A program made the translations under genes and the position numbers. Shown here in pieces: positions 22,125-35,004 of a DNA stretch of 64,000 bases. The notes beneath the pieces are model-generated. The model searched no databases. It was not told the DNA's origin and worked only from the letters and a program-made list of their open reading frames with translations. This DNA is from Lachnospiraceae bacterium UBA7026 (lineage in GTDB: Bacteria > Bacillota > Clostridia > Lachnospirales > Lachnospiraceae), in NCBI GenBank assembly GCA_002494165.1, contig DLBH01000039.1, positions 29,529 to 93,528 of the forward strand. The letters are read 5' to 3'. Each line of letters opens with the position of its first letter. Within the stretch, counting starts at the first letter, position 1.

Positions 22125-23540
22125 TTACAGCAGGCGACTCCAAAAGTCTGACAACAGGTCCGGGATCTGCCGGCGGTATATTCGGCCCGAGTAGGCCTCA
22201 TGGGGCCAGGATATAAACTCTGCCCGTTCAGGACAAATCCTCCGGTATATGGGGTCTGCCACAATCCGATCTCCCTCCTTTAAGATCTCCATCAGGTCTG
22301 CCTCAGAAGAAATCTGCAGGCAGTCACAAGACTCCAGATCCCGGTCCAGCTCCAGGGGACAGATGACCTGCCAGTCCCTCCCCCCTGCCAGATCAGCAGC
22401 CCGGGCAAGGGACAGGGCCTCCACCGGCTCCCCGATGATAAACTTCCTCTCACTCCCTGAAACAGACCCATTTTCCTGGCCGGCAAAAAGACTTTTACCG
22501 GATGACCCAGTCATGCAGGCCTCTGTAAGAGCCCTCAGCAGTTCGGGGCCAAACTGGCCGCAGGGCAGGCCGGTCACATAAGGAATCCCGAATCTTTTTT
22601 CTAAAACCCTGGCCGCCGGAAGTCCCACTGAAGAGACCACCAGACTGGCATGGGCCAGACCGGCTGATCCTATCTGCCGGCGCAGGTCCCCGGCTTCCCC
22701 ATCACCCATGGCAAAAACACTCTGAACAATAAAGCCATGGTCTCTGAGCCAGGCCAGGAGAGAAGCCCGGCCGCTGCCCACGGAAAAATCCAGGGGGGTC
22801 AAACCCAGCAGGTTAACCCGAAAAGGCCCGGAAGCTGACAGAAACTGGCCCGGCTGTCTGCCACTTCCCCAAGCCTCATCGTCTTCTCTGCCAGCTCTGG
22901 AAGAATCTATTTCCTCTTTGCCAGCCCTGGAAGGATCTATTTCCTCTCTGCCAACCTTAGCAGGATCTATTTCCTCTTTGCCGGCCTTAGCCGGGCCGGC
23001 TGCTTTTTCCTCCACCAGGCAGGAGGCGACCTTTTCCAGAGCCGTACCTGCACCAATGATATAACTGTTCATGCCACTGGTAGGAAAATACCAGGTGGGG
23101 ATTCCCGTTTCCAGTTCCACAATCCGGGCTATGGCATCAAAGTCTGTCCCTGTCATCATGGGTATAGGGGTCCTGACCAGGGCAATGAAGGCCGGCTTCA
23201 GGTCCCTGGCAGCCCGCACGATATCATCGATCAGCTTGTCATCATTTCCCATGATGGCATCGATCTGGGACAGGCCGGAAATAAAGATCAGGCTGTCCTT
23301 GTCATACCATCTGGGTTCATCATGGGTATTATAGGTAGAATTGCAGCCGGAGGGGTCATGCATGACGACCATGCCGCCCAGTTCATAGAGGGCCGAGCAG
23401 ACCCCGGACACGTCAGATGTATAATTGGACAGGAAGGCATGGGCCTGCCTGCGGGCCTGGTCCGAAACCTCAAAGTCCGGGCCGGCTCCGGCCGGTCTGT
23501 CCTGTCCCATATTTTCTTTTTTATAAGTTTCATCTATCAT
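22125..23540 (-). CDS. NifK-like nitrogenase component 1 protein (K1)
   Basis: 471-residue protein of the nitrogenase component 1 family (NifD/K/E/N, BchB, CfbD relatives). The N-terminal half shows CSALYELGGMVVMHDPSGC (Cys48 and Cys66), HDEPRWYD and LSQIDAIMGNDDKLIDDI. The position of the third P-cluster Cys of NifK holds VRTPIPMMTGTD instead. Residues about 181-218 are a repetitive hydrophilic linker based on AGKEEIDPSR. The C-terminal half has GMGDGEAGDLRRQIG, shared with the fused protein's second half. Last gene of the hyp/nif-like run. Not a true nitrogenase; substrate unknown. Confidence 0.82.
   Translation of the reverse strand: MIDETYKKENMGQDRPAGAGPDFEVSDQARRQAHAFLSNYTSDVSGVCSALYELGGMVVMHDPSGCNSTYNTHDEPRWYDKDSLIFISGLSQIDAIMGNDDKLIDDIVRAARDLKPAFIALVRTPIPMMTGTDFDAIARIVELETGIPTWYFPTSGMNSYIIGAGTALEKVASCLVEEKAAGPAKAGKEEIDPAKVGREEIDPSRAGKEEIDSSRAGREDDEAWGSGRQPGQFLSASGPFRVNLLGLTPLDFSVGSGRASLLAWLRDHGFIVQSVFAMGDGEAGDLRRQIGSAGLAHASLVVSSVGLPAARVLEKRFGIPYVTGLPCGQFGPELLRALTEACMTGSSGKSLFAGQENGSVSGSERKFIIGEPVEALSLARAADLAGGRDWQVICPLELDRDLESCDCLQISSEADLMEILKEGDRIVADPIYRRICPERAEFISWPHEAYSGRIYRRQIPDLLSDFWSRLL
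22886..22998. repeat. In-frame tandem repeat, about 3.7 copies of 30 bp
   Basis: Units begin at 22886, 22916, 22946 and 22976 and share a plus-strand core GGATCTATTTCCTCT. They encode the AGKEEIDPSR-type linker of the NifK-like protein. Confidence 0.93.
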
Positions 23541-23637
23541 AGCAGCACCTCTGAAAATGACTGGTCTTAACCGGCAGATCTTGCTTTGCCCCTTCCTTTA
23601 TACGGCTGACATAGCAAAAGCCTGCCCTAAGGGCATC

Positions 23638-25032
23638 CTAGCAAAGGCAGCTGGGACAGCCCAGCCCCTTCCTGCCTACCAGGTCCCTGGTATCCTTCTT
23701 CTCCCGGCAGGCCTCCTGCATGAGAGCAAGGAGCCGGCAGATGCCGTCATAGCCATGGAAACCTCCCCCCTCCACCATATTGACAAAATAAGGAGTCTGA
23801 TGAAAATAGGCCGCCTTCTGGCCCAGGGCCAGGACTCTTTCCTCATCAAAGCGGGGATAGGTCCTCATATTGTGATGAATCATGGAAGTGACCGGCAGCC
23901 AGGGGGCATGGTCCTTAAGCCAGAGAAAATCCTCCTCTTCCTCCGGGGCAAAGGCATCCCCGTAAAGATGCTTGACCTTAAAACCATGGTCCAGCAGGAG
24001 CCGGGTCAGGCCCAGTATTCCAGGAGTCAGGGAGACATCGAGAGCCAGGGGCATCCCGCCCAGCAGGTCCCTGGTTTCCTCCAGCATGGTCTCACACCTG
24101 GCCCGGAAACCGGCCAGCTCATCCTGGCTGTAGGGCTCAGTGTCCAGAGCCCGGGCCAGCTGTAAAAGTTCCTGGTCGATCTTATCATAGTCAAAGACTA
24201 CCGGCAAGTGGAGATGGTTAACACCCATTTTATCCGACAGCTTTCCGGCCCCGGACCTTGCCAGAGGGTATATGGAAATGTTTAAAAAACTGTCCCCCAT
24301 CTTCTGGTAATCTTCCCAGGTCCGGCAGGAGGTCAGGTCCCTGACCTGGCAGCCCGCCCGGTTAATCAATGTCACCAGCTGGCTCTCCCGGGGAGTAGGG
24401 AAATCATTGCCCACAATATTGACAGCTGTCCGGTCCCGGCCGGACTTGTCTGTAATGACAAGACCTTCATATAAGCCTGCCCTCAACTTCTCATCCGGCG
24501 TGATGCCTCCCTTTTGCACGATGGGGTCCATGTAGCTTTCCACCAGGCAGATATCCGGGAACCTGTCCCGGAGCACCCTGTAGATATAAGGGATGTCTGT
24601 CCCCATGAAATGATGGACACAGACCAGGAATAGAAAGAGCAGCCTGGGCCTTTTACCCACTTTTGTGAGCCGGCCTATAATCTCCGTCACCCCGTCGATG
24701 ACCAGGCCCTCCATGTCCTGGCCGTAGAGGTCGCCCTCCGTAAGACTGAGGAAGGAGTAGCGGTCGCCGGCGTCCATCTCTGCTGCCGTAAGGACAACAC
24801 CCCGGTTGCAGTTACCGCCGCAGACATAGATCTGGTGGGATTCCGGAACCAGCATGCCGATATGGACGATATTCCAGGGGCCATGGGCCGGACTGTTATA
24901 CTCCAGGCCGGGGCGGAAAGGGGCCGGCCAGGCTGCCTGGGATATGGTGACCGTTTCCCTCACACTGGTCTCTGCCTCCTCCCAAGGCTCCAGTCTGGGA
25001 TCATTTTTATTTCCGTGAACCAATTTAAGCAT
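23638..25032 (-). CDS. NifD-like nitrogenase component 1 protein (D1)
   Basis: 464-residue member of the nitrogenase component 1 family. Cys71 and Cys75 in YVCGGNCNRG and Cys138 in VCVHHFMGTD occupy the positions of iron-sulfur ligands in NifD. The region DLYGQDMEGLVIDGVTEII matches the family. The protein ends GLGCPSCLC, a C-terminal CX2CXC that is not a feature of NifD. No homologue of the FeMo-cofactor ligand pattern could be recognised. ATG at 25032 with GAGGTG 6 bases upstream. Partner of K1 directly downstream and of NifH-like 1 upstream. Confidence 0.82.
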   Translation of the reverse strand: MLKLVHGNKNDPRLEPWEEAETSVRETVTISQAAWPAPFRPGLEYNSPAHGPWNIVHIGMLVPESHQIYVCGGNCNRGVVLTAAEMDAGDRYSFLSLTEGDLYGQDMEGLVIDGVTEIIGRLTKVGKRPRLLFLFLVCVHHFMGTDIPYIYRVLRDRFPDICLVESYMDPIVQKGGITPDEKLRAGLYEGLVITDKSGRDRTAVNIVGNDFPTPRESQLVTLINRAGCQVRDLTSCRTWEDYQKMGDSFLNISIYPLARSGAGKLSDKMGVNHLHLPVVFDYDKIDQELLQLARALDTEPYSQDELAGFRARCETMLEETRDLLGGMPLALDVSLTPGILGLTRLLLDHGFKVKHLYGDAFAPEEEEDFLWLKDHAPWLPVTSMIHHNMRTYPRFDEERVLALGQKAAYFHQTPYFVNMVEGGGFHGYDGICRLLALMQEACREKKDTRDLVGRKGLGCPSCLC

Positions 25033-34228: not shown

Positions 34229-34230
34229 AT

Positions 34231-35004
34231 TTATTCCTCATCTGTATTATTTTCGTCAAGCTTCAGCAGGTCAAGGGCCAGGGTCCGGAAGGCGGCGCTC
34301 ACTTCCGAATCCGGCTCCCCCTCAATCACTGTCATGCCCCGGTCCTCACATGAGGTAATCTCATGACTTCTCGGAATCTCTCCCACGATGGGCAGACCGG
34401 ATTCCCTGGAAAAGGCTTCCACCCTTTCCCTCTCCTGGTCCACGTTCCTGTGGTTCAGGACGATCCCATAAACACTGGCATAACCCCGGTCCTCAAAGTT
34501 ACTGACTGCCATCCGTATATTATTGGCCGCATAAAGTGCCATCTTCTCCCCGGAGGTCACAATCAGCACATGCTCGGCATAGCCCTCCCGGATAGGGGCG
34601 GCGAAGCCACCGCAGACCACATCACCCAGCACGTCATAAAGGACCACGTCCGGCTTCCAGGTCTCAAAAAGTTCCAGGTCCTCTAAAAGAGAAAATGTAG
34701 TGATGATACCCCGGCCGGCACAGCCCAGACCTGGCGTCGGTCCACCGGTCTCAATACAGAGGACTCCGCCGTAACCTACGGCTGATATATCCTCGATCTT
34801 CTCCGGATCCTCATCCTTTTCCCGCATATAATTCATAACCGGTACCGGTGTCCGGCCGCCTAAAAGATTGATGGTGGAATCGGCCTTGGGATCACAGCCG
34901 ATCTGGATCACTCTCTTACCCATGCTGGCAAAAGCCGCTGCCAGATTGCCTGTCACTGTGGATTTTCCGATACCGCCTTTTCCGTAAACTGCCAATTTCA
35001 GCAT
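34231..35004 (-). CDS. NifH-like reductase/ATPase 2
   Basis: 257-residue NifH-family ATPase. The N-terminus MLKLAVYGKGGIGKST holds the P-loop; IGCDPKADST, GPTPGLGCAGRGI and DVLGDVVCGGFAAP keep both bridging Cys residues for the 4Fe-4S cluster. It is clearly a paralogue of NifH-like 1 but diverged in the C-terminal third (CEDRGMTVIEGEPDSEV). Two bases separate its stop from the start of the fused D2-K2 gene, so it is the likely reductase of that protein. First gene of the operon; AAAGGGAG precedes the ATG. Confidence 0.9.
   Translation of the reverse strand: MLKLAVYGKGGIGKSTVTGNLAAAFASMGKRVIQIGCDPKADSTINLLGGRTPVPVMNYMREKDEDPEKIEDISAVGYGGVLCIETGGPTPGLGCAGRGIITTFSLLEDLELFETWKPDVVLYDVLGDVVCGGFAAPIREGYAEHVLIVTSGEKMALYAANNIRMAVSNFEDRGYASVYGIVLNHRNVDQERERVEAFSRESGLPIVGEIPRSHEITSCEDRGMTVIEGEPDSEVSAAFRTLALDLLKLDENNTDEE

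Follow-up and report, generated by a model that had tools for sequence, protein, structure and literature searches.

A conserved operon of hypCDEF and nitrogenase-like genes probably takes the place of HydG in [FeFe]-hydrogenase maturation

A stretch of 64,000 nucleotides from Lachnospiraceae bacterium UBA7026 (assembly GCA_002494165.1, contig DLBH01000039.1, positions 29,529 to 93,528; hereafter the window) carries an operon in which genes of nitrogenase-like proteins are interleaved with those of the hydrogenase maturation proteins HypF, HypC, HypD and HypE. This operon, its occurrence among relatives and its relation to the maturation of [FeFe]-hydrogenase are the subject of the present report. 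It spans 22125-35004 and consists of 10 genes on the minus strand, which in the direction of transcription (falling coordinates) are NifH1, fused NifDK (DK), HypF, HypC, HypD, HypE, a TM1266-family protein, NifH2, NifD-like and NifK-like. The genes named by a first-pass annotation were all found in place, with short or overlapping junctions; the HypC/HypD and HypD/HypE genes overlap by a few bases.

NifH1 (34231..35004) is a NifH-family ATPase with the P-loop and both cluster cysteines, and its C37, C83, C95 and C131 are conserved in 80/80 aligned sequences. A second NifH-family ATPase, NifH2 (25113..25937), was identified by matches to profile hidden Markov models (HMMs); both NifH proteins match PF00142, with 296 and 298 bits. 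The fused NifD/NifK-like protein (31436..34228, 930 amino acids) matches PF00148 with 159 bits, its N half is nearest NifE, and a repetitive linker joins its two halves. The cysteines C72, C73, C130, C133, C146, C578 and C583 are invariant among 18 aligned DK sequences. In the window DK the linker consists of near-identical SQAGI-type repeats, one after another, and a short repeat also occurs in the window NifK; the linkers of 17 aligned relatives are shorter and lack the SQAGI-type repeat. The AlphaFold2 (AF2) model of the fused DK was only moderate (predicted local distance difference test, pLDDT, 70.5; predicted template-modelling score, pTM, 0.58) and was not used.

The separate NifD-like (23638..25044) and NifK-like (22125..23540) proteins match PF00148 with 56.6 and 63.4 bits. 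The AF2 model of the NifD-like protein (pLDDT 81.6) has the nitrogenase-superfamily fold, and in a Foldseek search it matched chains of nitrogenase, NifEN, BchN and methylthio-alkane reductase with E 4e-13, a template-modelling (TM) score of ~0.6 and ~15% identity; the 50 matches listed were all nitrogenase-superfamily chains. Assignment of the NifH and D/K proteins stays at the superfamily level, since they score under every nitrogenase, CfbC, Bch and NifE equivalog cut-off listed: the two NifH reached 307.5 and 323.7 bits with the curated NifH cut-off at 394, and the NifE match was 105.7 bits with the cut-off at 505.

The Hyp proteins were assigned more directly. HypF (28839..31334), the carbamoyltransferase that is the source of the cyanide ligands in Hyp systems, scores 708 bits with TIGR00143 (cut-off 466), and HypD (27283..28368), the Fe-S scaffold for Fe(CN)2CO, and HypE (26277..27293) lie over their curated cut-offs with 384 bits (TIGR00075) and 419 bits (TIGR02124), respectively. 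HypC (28365..28574, 69 amino acids), the Fe(CN)2CO chaperone, was recognised by its sequence and place and not by an HMM. As the first-pass annotation had pointed out, the functional ends of HypC (MC) and HypE (PRIC) are intact, and the residues concerned are conserved among relatives: Cys2 and His45 of HypC are invariant in 72/72 aligned sequences and the terminal Cys of HypE is present in 99% of 67. HypD residues C301, C303, C316, C323, C332 and C340 are found in 70/70 sequences, and C26, C54 and C57 in 99%. The gene between HypE and NifH2 (25967..26212) is an addition to the earlier gene list; its product matches PF21699 and, with 107.8 bits (cut-off 60.8), TIGR03959, the TM1266 family, to which curation assigns a putative regulatory role in [FeFe]-hydrogenase systems.

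Relatives were scanned with a fused DK alignment, one genome per species, which gave 489 relatives and 80 loci that were kept, selected by DK alone. At least 6.5 kb downstream of DK was available in 61 of the 80 loci, and all 61 carry HypF, HypC, HypD and HypE on the same strand within 12 kb, so the hyp/nif-like linkage that the first-pass annotation wished to see checked is indeed conserved. HypF usually follows DK (exceptions L022 and L208). Where at least 9.8 kb downstream was available (52 loci), the split NifD and NifK were on the same strand in 45 and missing in L017, L019, L036, L038, L057, L064 and L073; in L048, L051, L055, L072, L077 and L086 the NifH2-D-K half lies upstream instead. 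TM1266 and NifH2 were each seen in 44/80 loci, counts in which loci with short flanks are included. The operon was found in Lachnospiraceae, acetogenic Clostridium, Coriobacteriia and Megasphaera, and DK with HypF was found on a short contig of Synergistaceae.

The genomes of 50 of the 80 loci, which we chose with preference for isolates and long contigs, were surveyed together with the source genome of the window, except that the [NiFe]-hydrogenase large subunit (PF00374) was counted in the 50 only. PF00374 was present in 13 of the 50 and absent from 37, among them Blautia sp. Marseille-P3087, Roseburia faecis, Eubacterium ramulus, Coprococcus comes, Anaerobutyricum hallii and Clostridium luticellarii. 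HypD was found in 51/51 operon genomes, and each of the 37 that lack the large subunit has just one HypD gene (twice, one gene was given in two rows, and one 18-bit row was not HypD). With the source genome included, 14 operon genomes bear a [NiFe]-hydrogenase; 10 of these have a further HypD beside the hydrogenase or on its contig, and four (G006, G009, G012 and G024) have only the nif-linked HypD. In a HypD tree of 84 rows, a branch with support of 100/99, present in 100% of 200 bootstrap trees, separated the 70 nif-linked sequences from 10 hydrogenase-linked HypD of these genomes and from 4 plasmid references. HypA was over its cut-off in 22/51 operon genomes, the source genome included. 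The Hyp genes of the operon are thus tied to the nif-like genes and not to [NiFe]-hydrogenase, by the linkage in 61/61 loci, the missing large subunit in 37/50 genomes and the separate HypD clade.

The source genome is a draft of 2.33 Mb in 87 contigs and 83% complete. The statement of the first-pass annotation that the operon occurs without a hydrogenase holds for the window and fails for the genome, because an Ech-type [NiFe]-hydrogenase and an [FeFe]-hydrogenase are encoded elsewhere in it. The cysteine motifs CGIC and DPCISC are both present in the Ech large subunit, and two HypA and two HypB over their cut-offs were also found. The annotation had named a [NiFe]-hydrogenase with HypA and HypB elsewhere in the genome, combined with a lack of conserved linkage, as what would speak against it; the former is present, but Ech has its own HypC-HypD-HypE-HypA directly downstream (L153, 5708-13957), and the latter was not the case. 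The Ech-side HypC, HypD and HypE are 34-46% identical to the nif-linked copies, and no HypF was found beside Ech in this locus. The single [FeFe]-hydrogenase (488 amino acids, supported by Pfam), HydE (found by tblastn and its radical-SAM domain) and HydF (535 bits) are encoded on contigs other than that of the operon. HydG was not found in the source genome, where the best match to the HydG model reached 58 bits.

The absence of HydG is general among operon genomes. The HydG model (TIGR03955) was over its cut-off in only 2/51, namely Clostridium thailandense (G007, 683 bits) and C. drakei (G012, 948 bits), and below it in 49/51. The next matches, at 169-222 bits, do not cover the C-terminal domain, and 6/6 tested sub-cut-off matches were ThiH (496-535 bits, cut-off 380). 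The HydG-type C-terminal CTACYR site was seen only in the two true HydG. In 23/51 operon genomes, including the source genome and C. ljungdahlii, there was not even a ThiH-like match of 150 bits, and no protein of C. ljungdahlii exceeded 68 bits with the HydG model. Roseburia faecis, Eubacterium ramulus, Coprococcus comes, Blautia, C. ljungdahlii and C. carboxidivorans all have an [FeFe]-hydrogenase, with HydG not detected.

The [FeFe]-hydrogenase domain PF02906 was over its cut-off in 51/51 operon genomes, and among the loci read the L1 motif was present in 30/30 and L2 or L3 in 27/30. Of the 80 operon loci, 21 contain HydE or HydF; 15 of these have it on the strand of the operon, and in 14 of the 15 it is no more than 300 bp away from a core gene. 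In L086 the genes run TM1266-HydF-HydE-NifH2-NifD-NifK-NifH1-DK-HypF, followed by HypC, HypD and HypE, and in G243 HydE and HydF stand between the D half and the K half after NifH1. Fifty of the 51 genomes searched had a HydE-like radical-SAM match, which lay within 15 kb of the operon HypD on the same contig in 16; tblastn found HydE in 12/12 regions fetched around HydE-like matches of operon genomes, once in two pieces. In Megasphaera (L085, 12070-14103) the operon runs from NifK to HydF and then to a gene that by eye resembles aspartate ammonia-lyase.

The relation to HydG was quantified in 298 genomes of the family of the window (~280 genera, all but the source genome at least 90% complete). 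HydF was counted as present at E < 1e-60 (165 genomes; the curated cut-off gives 164) and the operon at an N half of DK of at least 350 bits (24 genomes), where up to three candidates of each genome were scored among the rows shown; HydG and HypD were over their cut-offs in 132 and 61 genomes. HydG was found in 0/24 genomes with DK versus 132/274 without it, whereas HydF was found in 24/24 versus 141/274 and HypD in 24/24 versus 37/274. Two genomes with DK scores of 447 (G053) and 437 bits (G296) were left out because they matched most of the profile but not its start and were judged to hold another nif-like family; both lack HydG and HydF, and with them the counts become 0/26 for HydG and 24/26 for HydF. 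Among the 165 genomes with HydF, 24 have only the operon, 130 only HydG, none both and 11 neither (Fisher p 9e-21); G065 and G126 have HydG without HydF.

Because kinship could inflate this p-value, a HydF tree was built from 83 rows: 37 from operon genomes (23 of the 24 above, with G105 omitted, and 14 named operon loci, among which L058, L080 and L081 are outside the genomes tested for HydG), 37 hand-picked from the 130 with HydG, and 9 of the 11 with neither (G087 and G147 omitted). All 83 passed the length filter of 340 amino acids. The operon label needs 13 changes on this tree, of which at least 7 are forced by well-supported branches, and well-supported sister pairs of operon and HydG rows were L300/L328, L297/L313 and L286/L303. 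Transfer of HydF itself could add label changes. Our reading is that HydG and the operon have been exchanged repeatedly beneath a retained HydF, as the distribution of the genes over the tree suggests. A very divergent HydF lineage on a long branch of this tree comprises L240 (9011-10228) with G061 and G260.

The 11 genomes with HydF and, by our thresholds, neither HydG nor the operon all lack HypD. Three of them (G150, G240 and G164) have a single cluster (L235, 7535-16605; L236, 5364-13591; L237, 5589-13612) with NifH2-NifD-NifK, TM1266 and HydF together with a substrate-binding protein, a permease and an ATPase, and in G150 also HydE; an importer thus stands in place of NifH1-DK-HypFCDE. 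The importer proteins tested from L235 and L236 have Pfam FecCD and periplasmic-binding domains, a type of metal-complex uptake, and those of L237 were assigned by eye. In G284, NifH2-D-K and HydF are on different contigs (L239 and L246). These arrangements suggest a design of two modules: a processing end formed by NifH2-D-K near HydE and HydF, and a source end that is NifH1-DK-HypFCDE in some genomes and an importer in others. In G171, G202 and G324 (L241-L243), HydF adjoins an Ssu/NitT-type ABC importer, a second type in that position, with HydE or TM1266 (family models were applied to L241 only), and no nif-like genes are in these HydF regions. G087 has a HydG fragment of 262 bits, the HydF of G155 falls within the divergent HydF group of the tree, and G088 has a different nif-like H-D-K set (L238). 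In G346, one cluster (L244, 9024-16133) holds HydG plus NifH2-D-K, a binding protein, TM1266, HydE and HydF.

HydG makes the CO and CN- of the H-cluster, either as an Fe(CO)2CN synthon or free, and HypCDEF make Fe(CN)2CO, according to the consulted part of PMC9431212 and as generally known. We consider it probable that the operon replaces HydG, with HypCDEF and two nitrogenase-like complexes making a CO/CN-bearing iron unit for HydE and HydF; maturation of [FeFe]-hydrogenase is preferred as the function because the operon exchanges with HydG and is linked to HydE, HydF and TM1266. For the same reasons, the free-standing nitrogenase-like enzyme with an Fe(CN)2CO unit that the first-pass annotation had entertained is not the best reading, while its proposal that nitrogenase-like proteins handle Fe-CN/CO units is one we share and infer likewise.

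In the order of steps that we propose, HypF and HypE would make cyanide from carbamoyl phosphate, and HypC and HypD would mount cyanide and one CO on a single iron in the manner of [NiFe] maturation. The fused, NifEN-like DK, usually encoded beside hypF, would accept the Fe-CN/CO unit from HypCDEF, and NifH1 would supply DK with ATP-gated electrons of low potential, so that the ligand set and oxidation state of the unit would be shifted toward a HydG-type Fe(CO)x(CN) synthon; the remodelling on DK might add CO derived from CO2 or remove one cyanide. NifH2 with NifD/NifK would then take the last step and pass the unit to HydE and HydF, a position assigned to it because this module stays with HydF, and once with HydE, in the variants without HypD and fused DK. 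Reduction of CO2 to CO by NifH-type proteins and nitrogenases, cyanide reduction and the scaffold role of NifEN are precedents among nitrogenase proteins. On balance we lean slightly towards this being a second route to the H-cluster as a whole, in which a Hyp unit from carbamoyl phosphate is carried and reductively remodelled by nitrogenase-like proteins and finished by HydE and HydF, and in which a metal-complex importer replaces the Hyp half in some relatives. The replacement of HydG at the level of the system is a much firmer claim than the order of steps, the statistics and the linkage being strong and the chemistry a prediction.

Several observations weigh against this interpretation. 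C. drakei and C. thailandense hold both the operon and HydG, a divergent HydG outside the reach of the HydG model may exist in C. ljungdahlii, and atypical HydG candidates of ~450 amino acids are described in the consulted part of PMC9431212 for all of its eight acetogens but C. autoethanogenum, for which another is named there and which is outside our set of operon genomes. The 11 genomes among 165 with HydF and neither alternative indicate that the operon is not the sole alternative to HydG. HydE and HydF were not seen in 59/80 operon loci within the available flanks and do not adjoin the operon in the source genome, where the operon HypF may also serve Ech; NifH2 is missing from most loci of Coriobacteriia. 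On the HydF tree, 28 of the 80 inner branches are unresolved and long-branch warnings were given, and a long-branch warning also applies to the rows outside the nif-linked clade of the HypD tree. As to the chemistry, Hyp gives two cyanides and one CO per iron, HydG one cyanide and two CO; the proposed steps would therefore require a hypothetical exchange of ligands, and they are a prediction.

Among other explanations, the one that survives best is that HypCDEF alone replace HydG and that the nitrogenase-like proteins donate electrons to HypCD or HydE, or reduce CO2 to CO, and never carry Fe-CN/CO units. The conserved catalytic residues of HypC, HypD and HypE and the reduction of CO2 to CO mentioned above are consistent with it; however, two different D/K complexes are kept, often with two NifH (NifH2 in 44/80), and NifH2-D-K stays with HydF where HypD is gone (L235-L237), and we regard it as possible but doubtful. 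We find it unlikely that the operon encodes a new nitrogenase-like enzyme with its own Fe(CN)2CO-type centre, a substrate that is not known and no connection to [FeFe]-hydrogenase: a conserved operon with full HypCDEF, no [NiFe] client in 37/50 genomes and two H-D-K sets would fit such an enzyme, yet it would leave unexplained the absence of HydG (49/51 genomes and 0/24 in the family), the presence of HydF in 24/24, why the operon label changes repeatedly on the HydF tree and why HydE, HydF and TM1266 are linked to the operon.

Marginally less credible still is that ThiH or an unrecognised radical-SAM protein replaces HydG, that the operon does something else and that the mutual exclusion is a lineage effect. 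ThiH-like matches of at least 150 bits do occur in 28/51 operon genomes, and atypical HydG candidates are proposed for acetogens in the consulted text of PMC9431212. We nevertheless rejected ThiH as a general substitute, since 23/51 genomes lack such a match and the inspected ThiH-like proteins lack the C-terminal CTACYR (L173 fits a loose cysteine pattern only at the radical-SAM site), and the supported label changes, at least 7, argue against a single lineage effect. That the operon Hyp proteins simply mature [NiFe]-hydrogenase beside unrelated nif-like genes, as the Ech, HypA and HypB of the source genome and the nif-linked HypD being the only one in 4 of the 14 [NiFe]-bearing operon genomes might suggest, was rejected as highly improbable because 37/50 genomes have no client by PF00374, Ech has its own Hyp set and the operon HypD forms its own clade.

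The operon shares with the known HydE/HydF/HydG maturation system TM1266, HydE (12/12 regions read) and, in every operon genome examined for these two, HydF and an [FeFe]-hydrogenase, and differs from it in that HydG is absent in 49/51 operon genomes and a nif-like and Hyp set is found instead. Like HypABCDEF of [NiFe] maturation it has complete HypC, HypD, HypE and HypF with conserved catalytic residues, but the HypD clade is its own, a [NiFe] client is mostly lacking, HypA occurs in 22/51 genomes and nif-like genes surround the Hyp genes. Its two H-D-K sets recall NifEN beside NifDK with NifH, as do the superfamily fold and the N half of the fused DK, nearest NifE; unlike them, all of its proteins lie under the NCBIfam equivalog cut-offs, the identity is ~15% (NifD-like model) and the genes are linked to Hyp and Hyd genes. 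CfbCD, BchLNB and methylthio-alkane reductase likewise pair a NifH-type ATPase with a two-part component and are represented among the Foldseek matches, but no curated cut-off of CfbC, BchL/N/B or BchX/Y was reached and the neighbours are other ones; methylthio-alkane reductase was compared by fold only, and its neighbours differ as well. A relation to methylthio-alkane reductase or mlp clusters, with the MarHDK-like linkage described in the consulted part of PMC10418091, was considered and dropped, as none of those genes is among the named neighbours.

Parts of this picture are already in print. In the consulted portion of PMC3464626 (2012), pairs of linked NifHEN-like copies of Coprococcus catus and other Firmicutes are associated with hydrogenase maturation proteins, and one sentence suggests a role in the assembly of an active-site cluster; other nitrogenase-like genes there adjoin ABC transporters. 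These pairs are probably this same operon, although that portion does not name the hydrogenase type, the loss of HydG or HypCDEF and gives no test. In the consulted text of PMC9431212 (2022), HydE and HydF were always found in eight acetogenic clostridia and HydG was not found in five, including C. ljungdahlii, C. carboxidivorans and C. ragsdalei; it offers no straightforward explanation of this gap, with atypical HydG candidates or ligands from elsewhere as scenarios. The same text gives HypCDEF without HypA/HypB in five species, with two HypC-D-E sets in C. carboxidivorans, and as far as it goes links the HydG and HypA/HypB gaps neither to each other nor to nitrogenase-like genes. The operon accounts for both gaps. 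The linkage of hyp and nif-like genes was thus reported before, in PMC3464626 as far as consulted, and the HydG-replacing route is the new part, with novelty bounded by our search of the open-licence literature, which found no statement that these genes replace HydG.

The operon thereby joins the linkage remark of 2012 and the HydG gap of 2022 into a concrete answer for gut bacteria and industrial acetogens. If the interpretation is true, evolution would have arrived a second time at one of the most unusual cofactors known, and nitrogenase-like proteins, thereby linked to CO/CN-ligated iron, would handle it as a cofactor in transit. The operon would also offer a new set of components for producing hydrogenases in other hosts, and the current annotation of hundreds of hyp and nif genes as [NiFe] maturation or nitrogenase would need revision. 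If the importer variants are read correctly, an iron cyano-carbonyl unit, or its precursor, would be shared between gut bacteria.

Several clusters of neighbouring genes were dismissed because they look like antisense shadow open reading frames. Genes for DUF6110 and a heavy-metal P-type ATPase flank the operon in the window (19327-22001), a flank seen in 0/80 operon loci. A different nitrogenase-like H-D-K set is present in L248 (4653-10305), L249 and L238, and in L248 genes for DUF6110 and a heavy-metal P-type ATPase, of the type found beside the operon in the window, precede this set.

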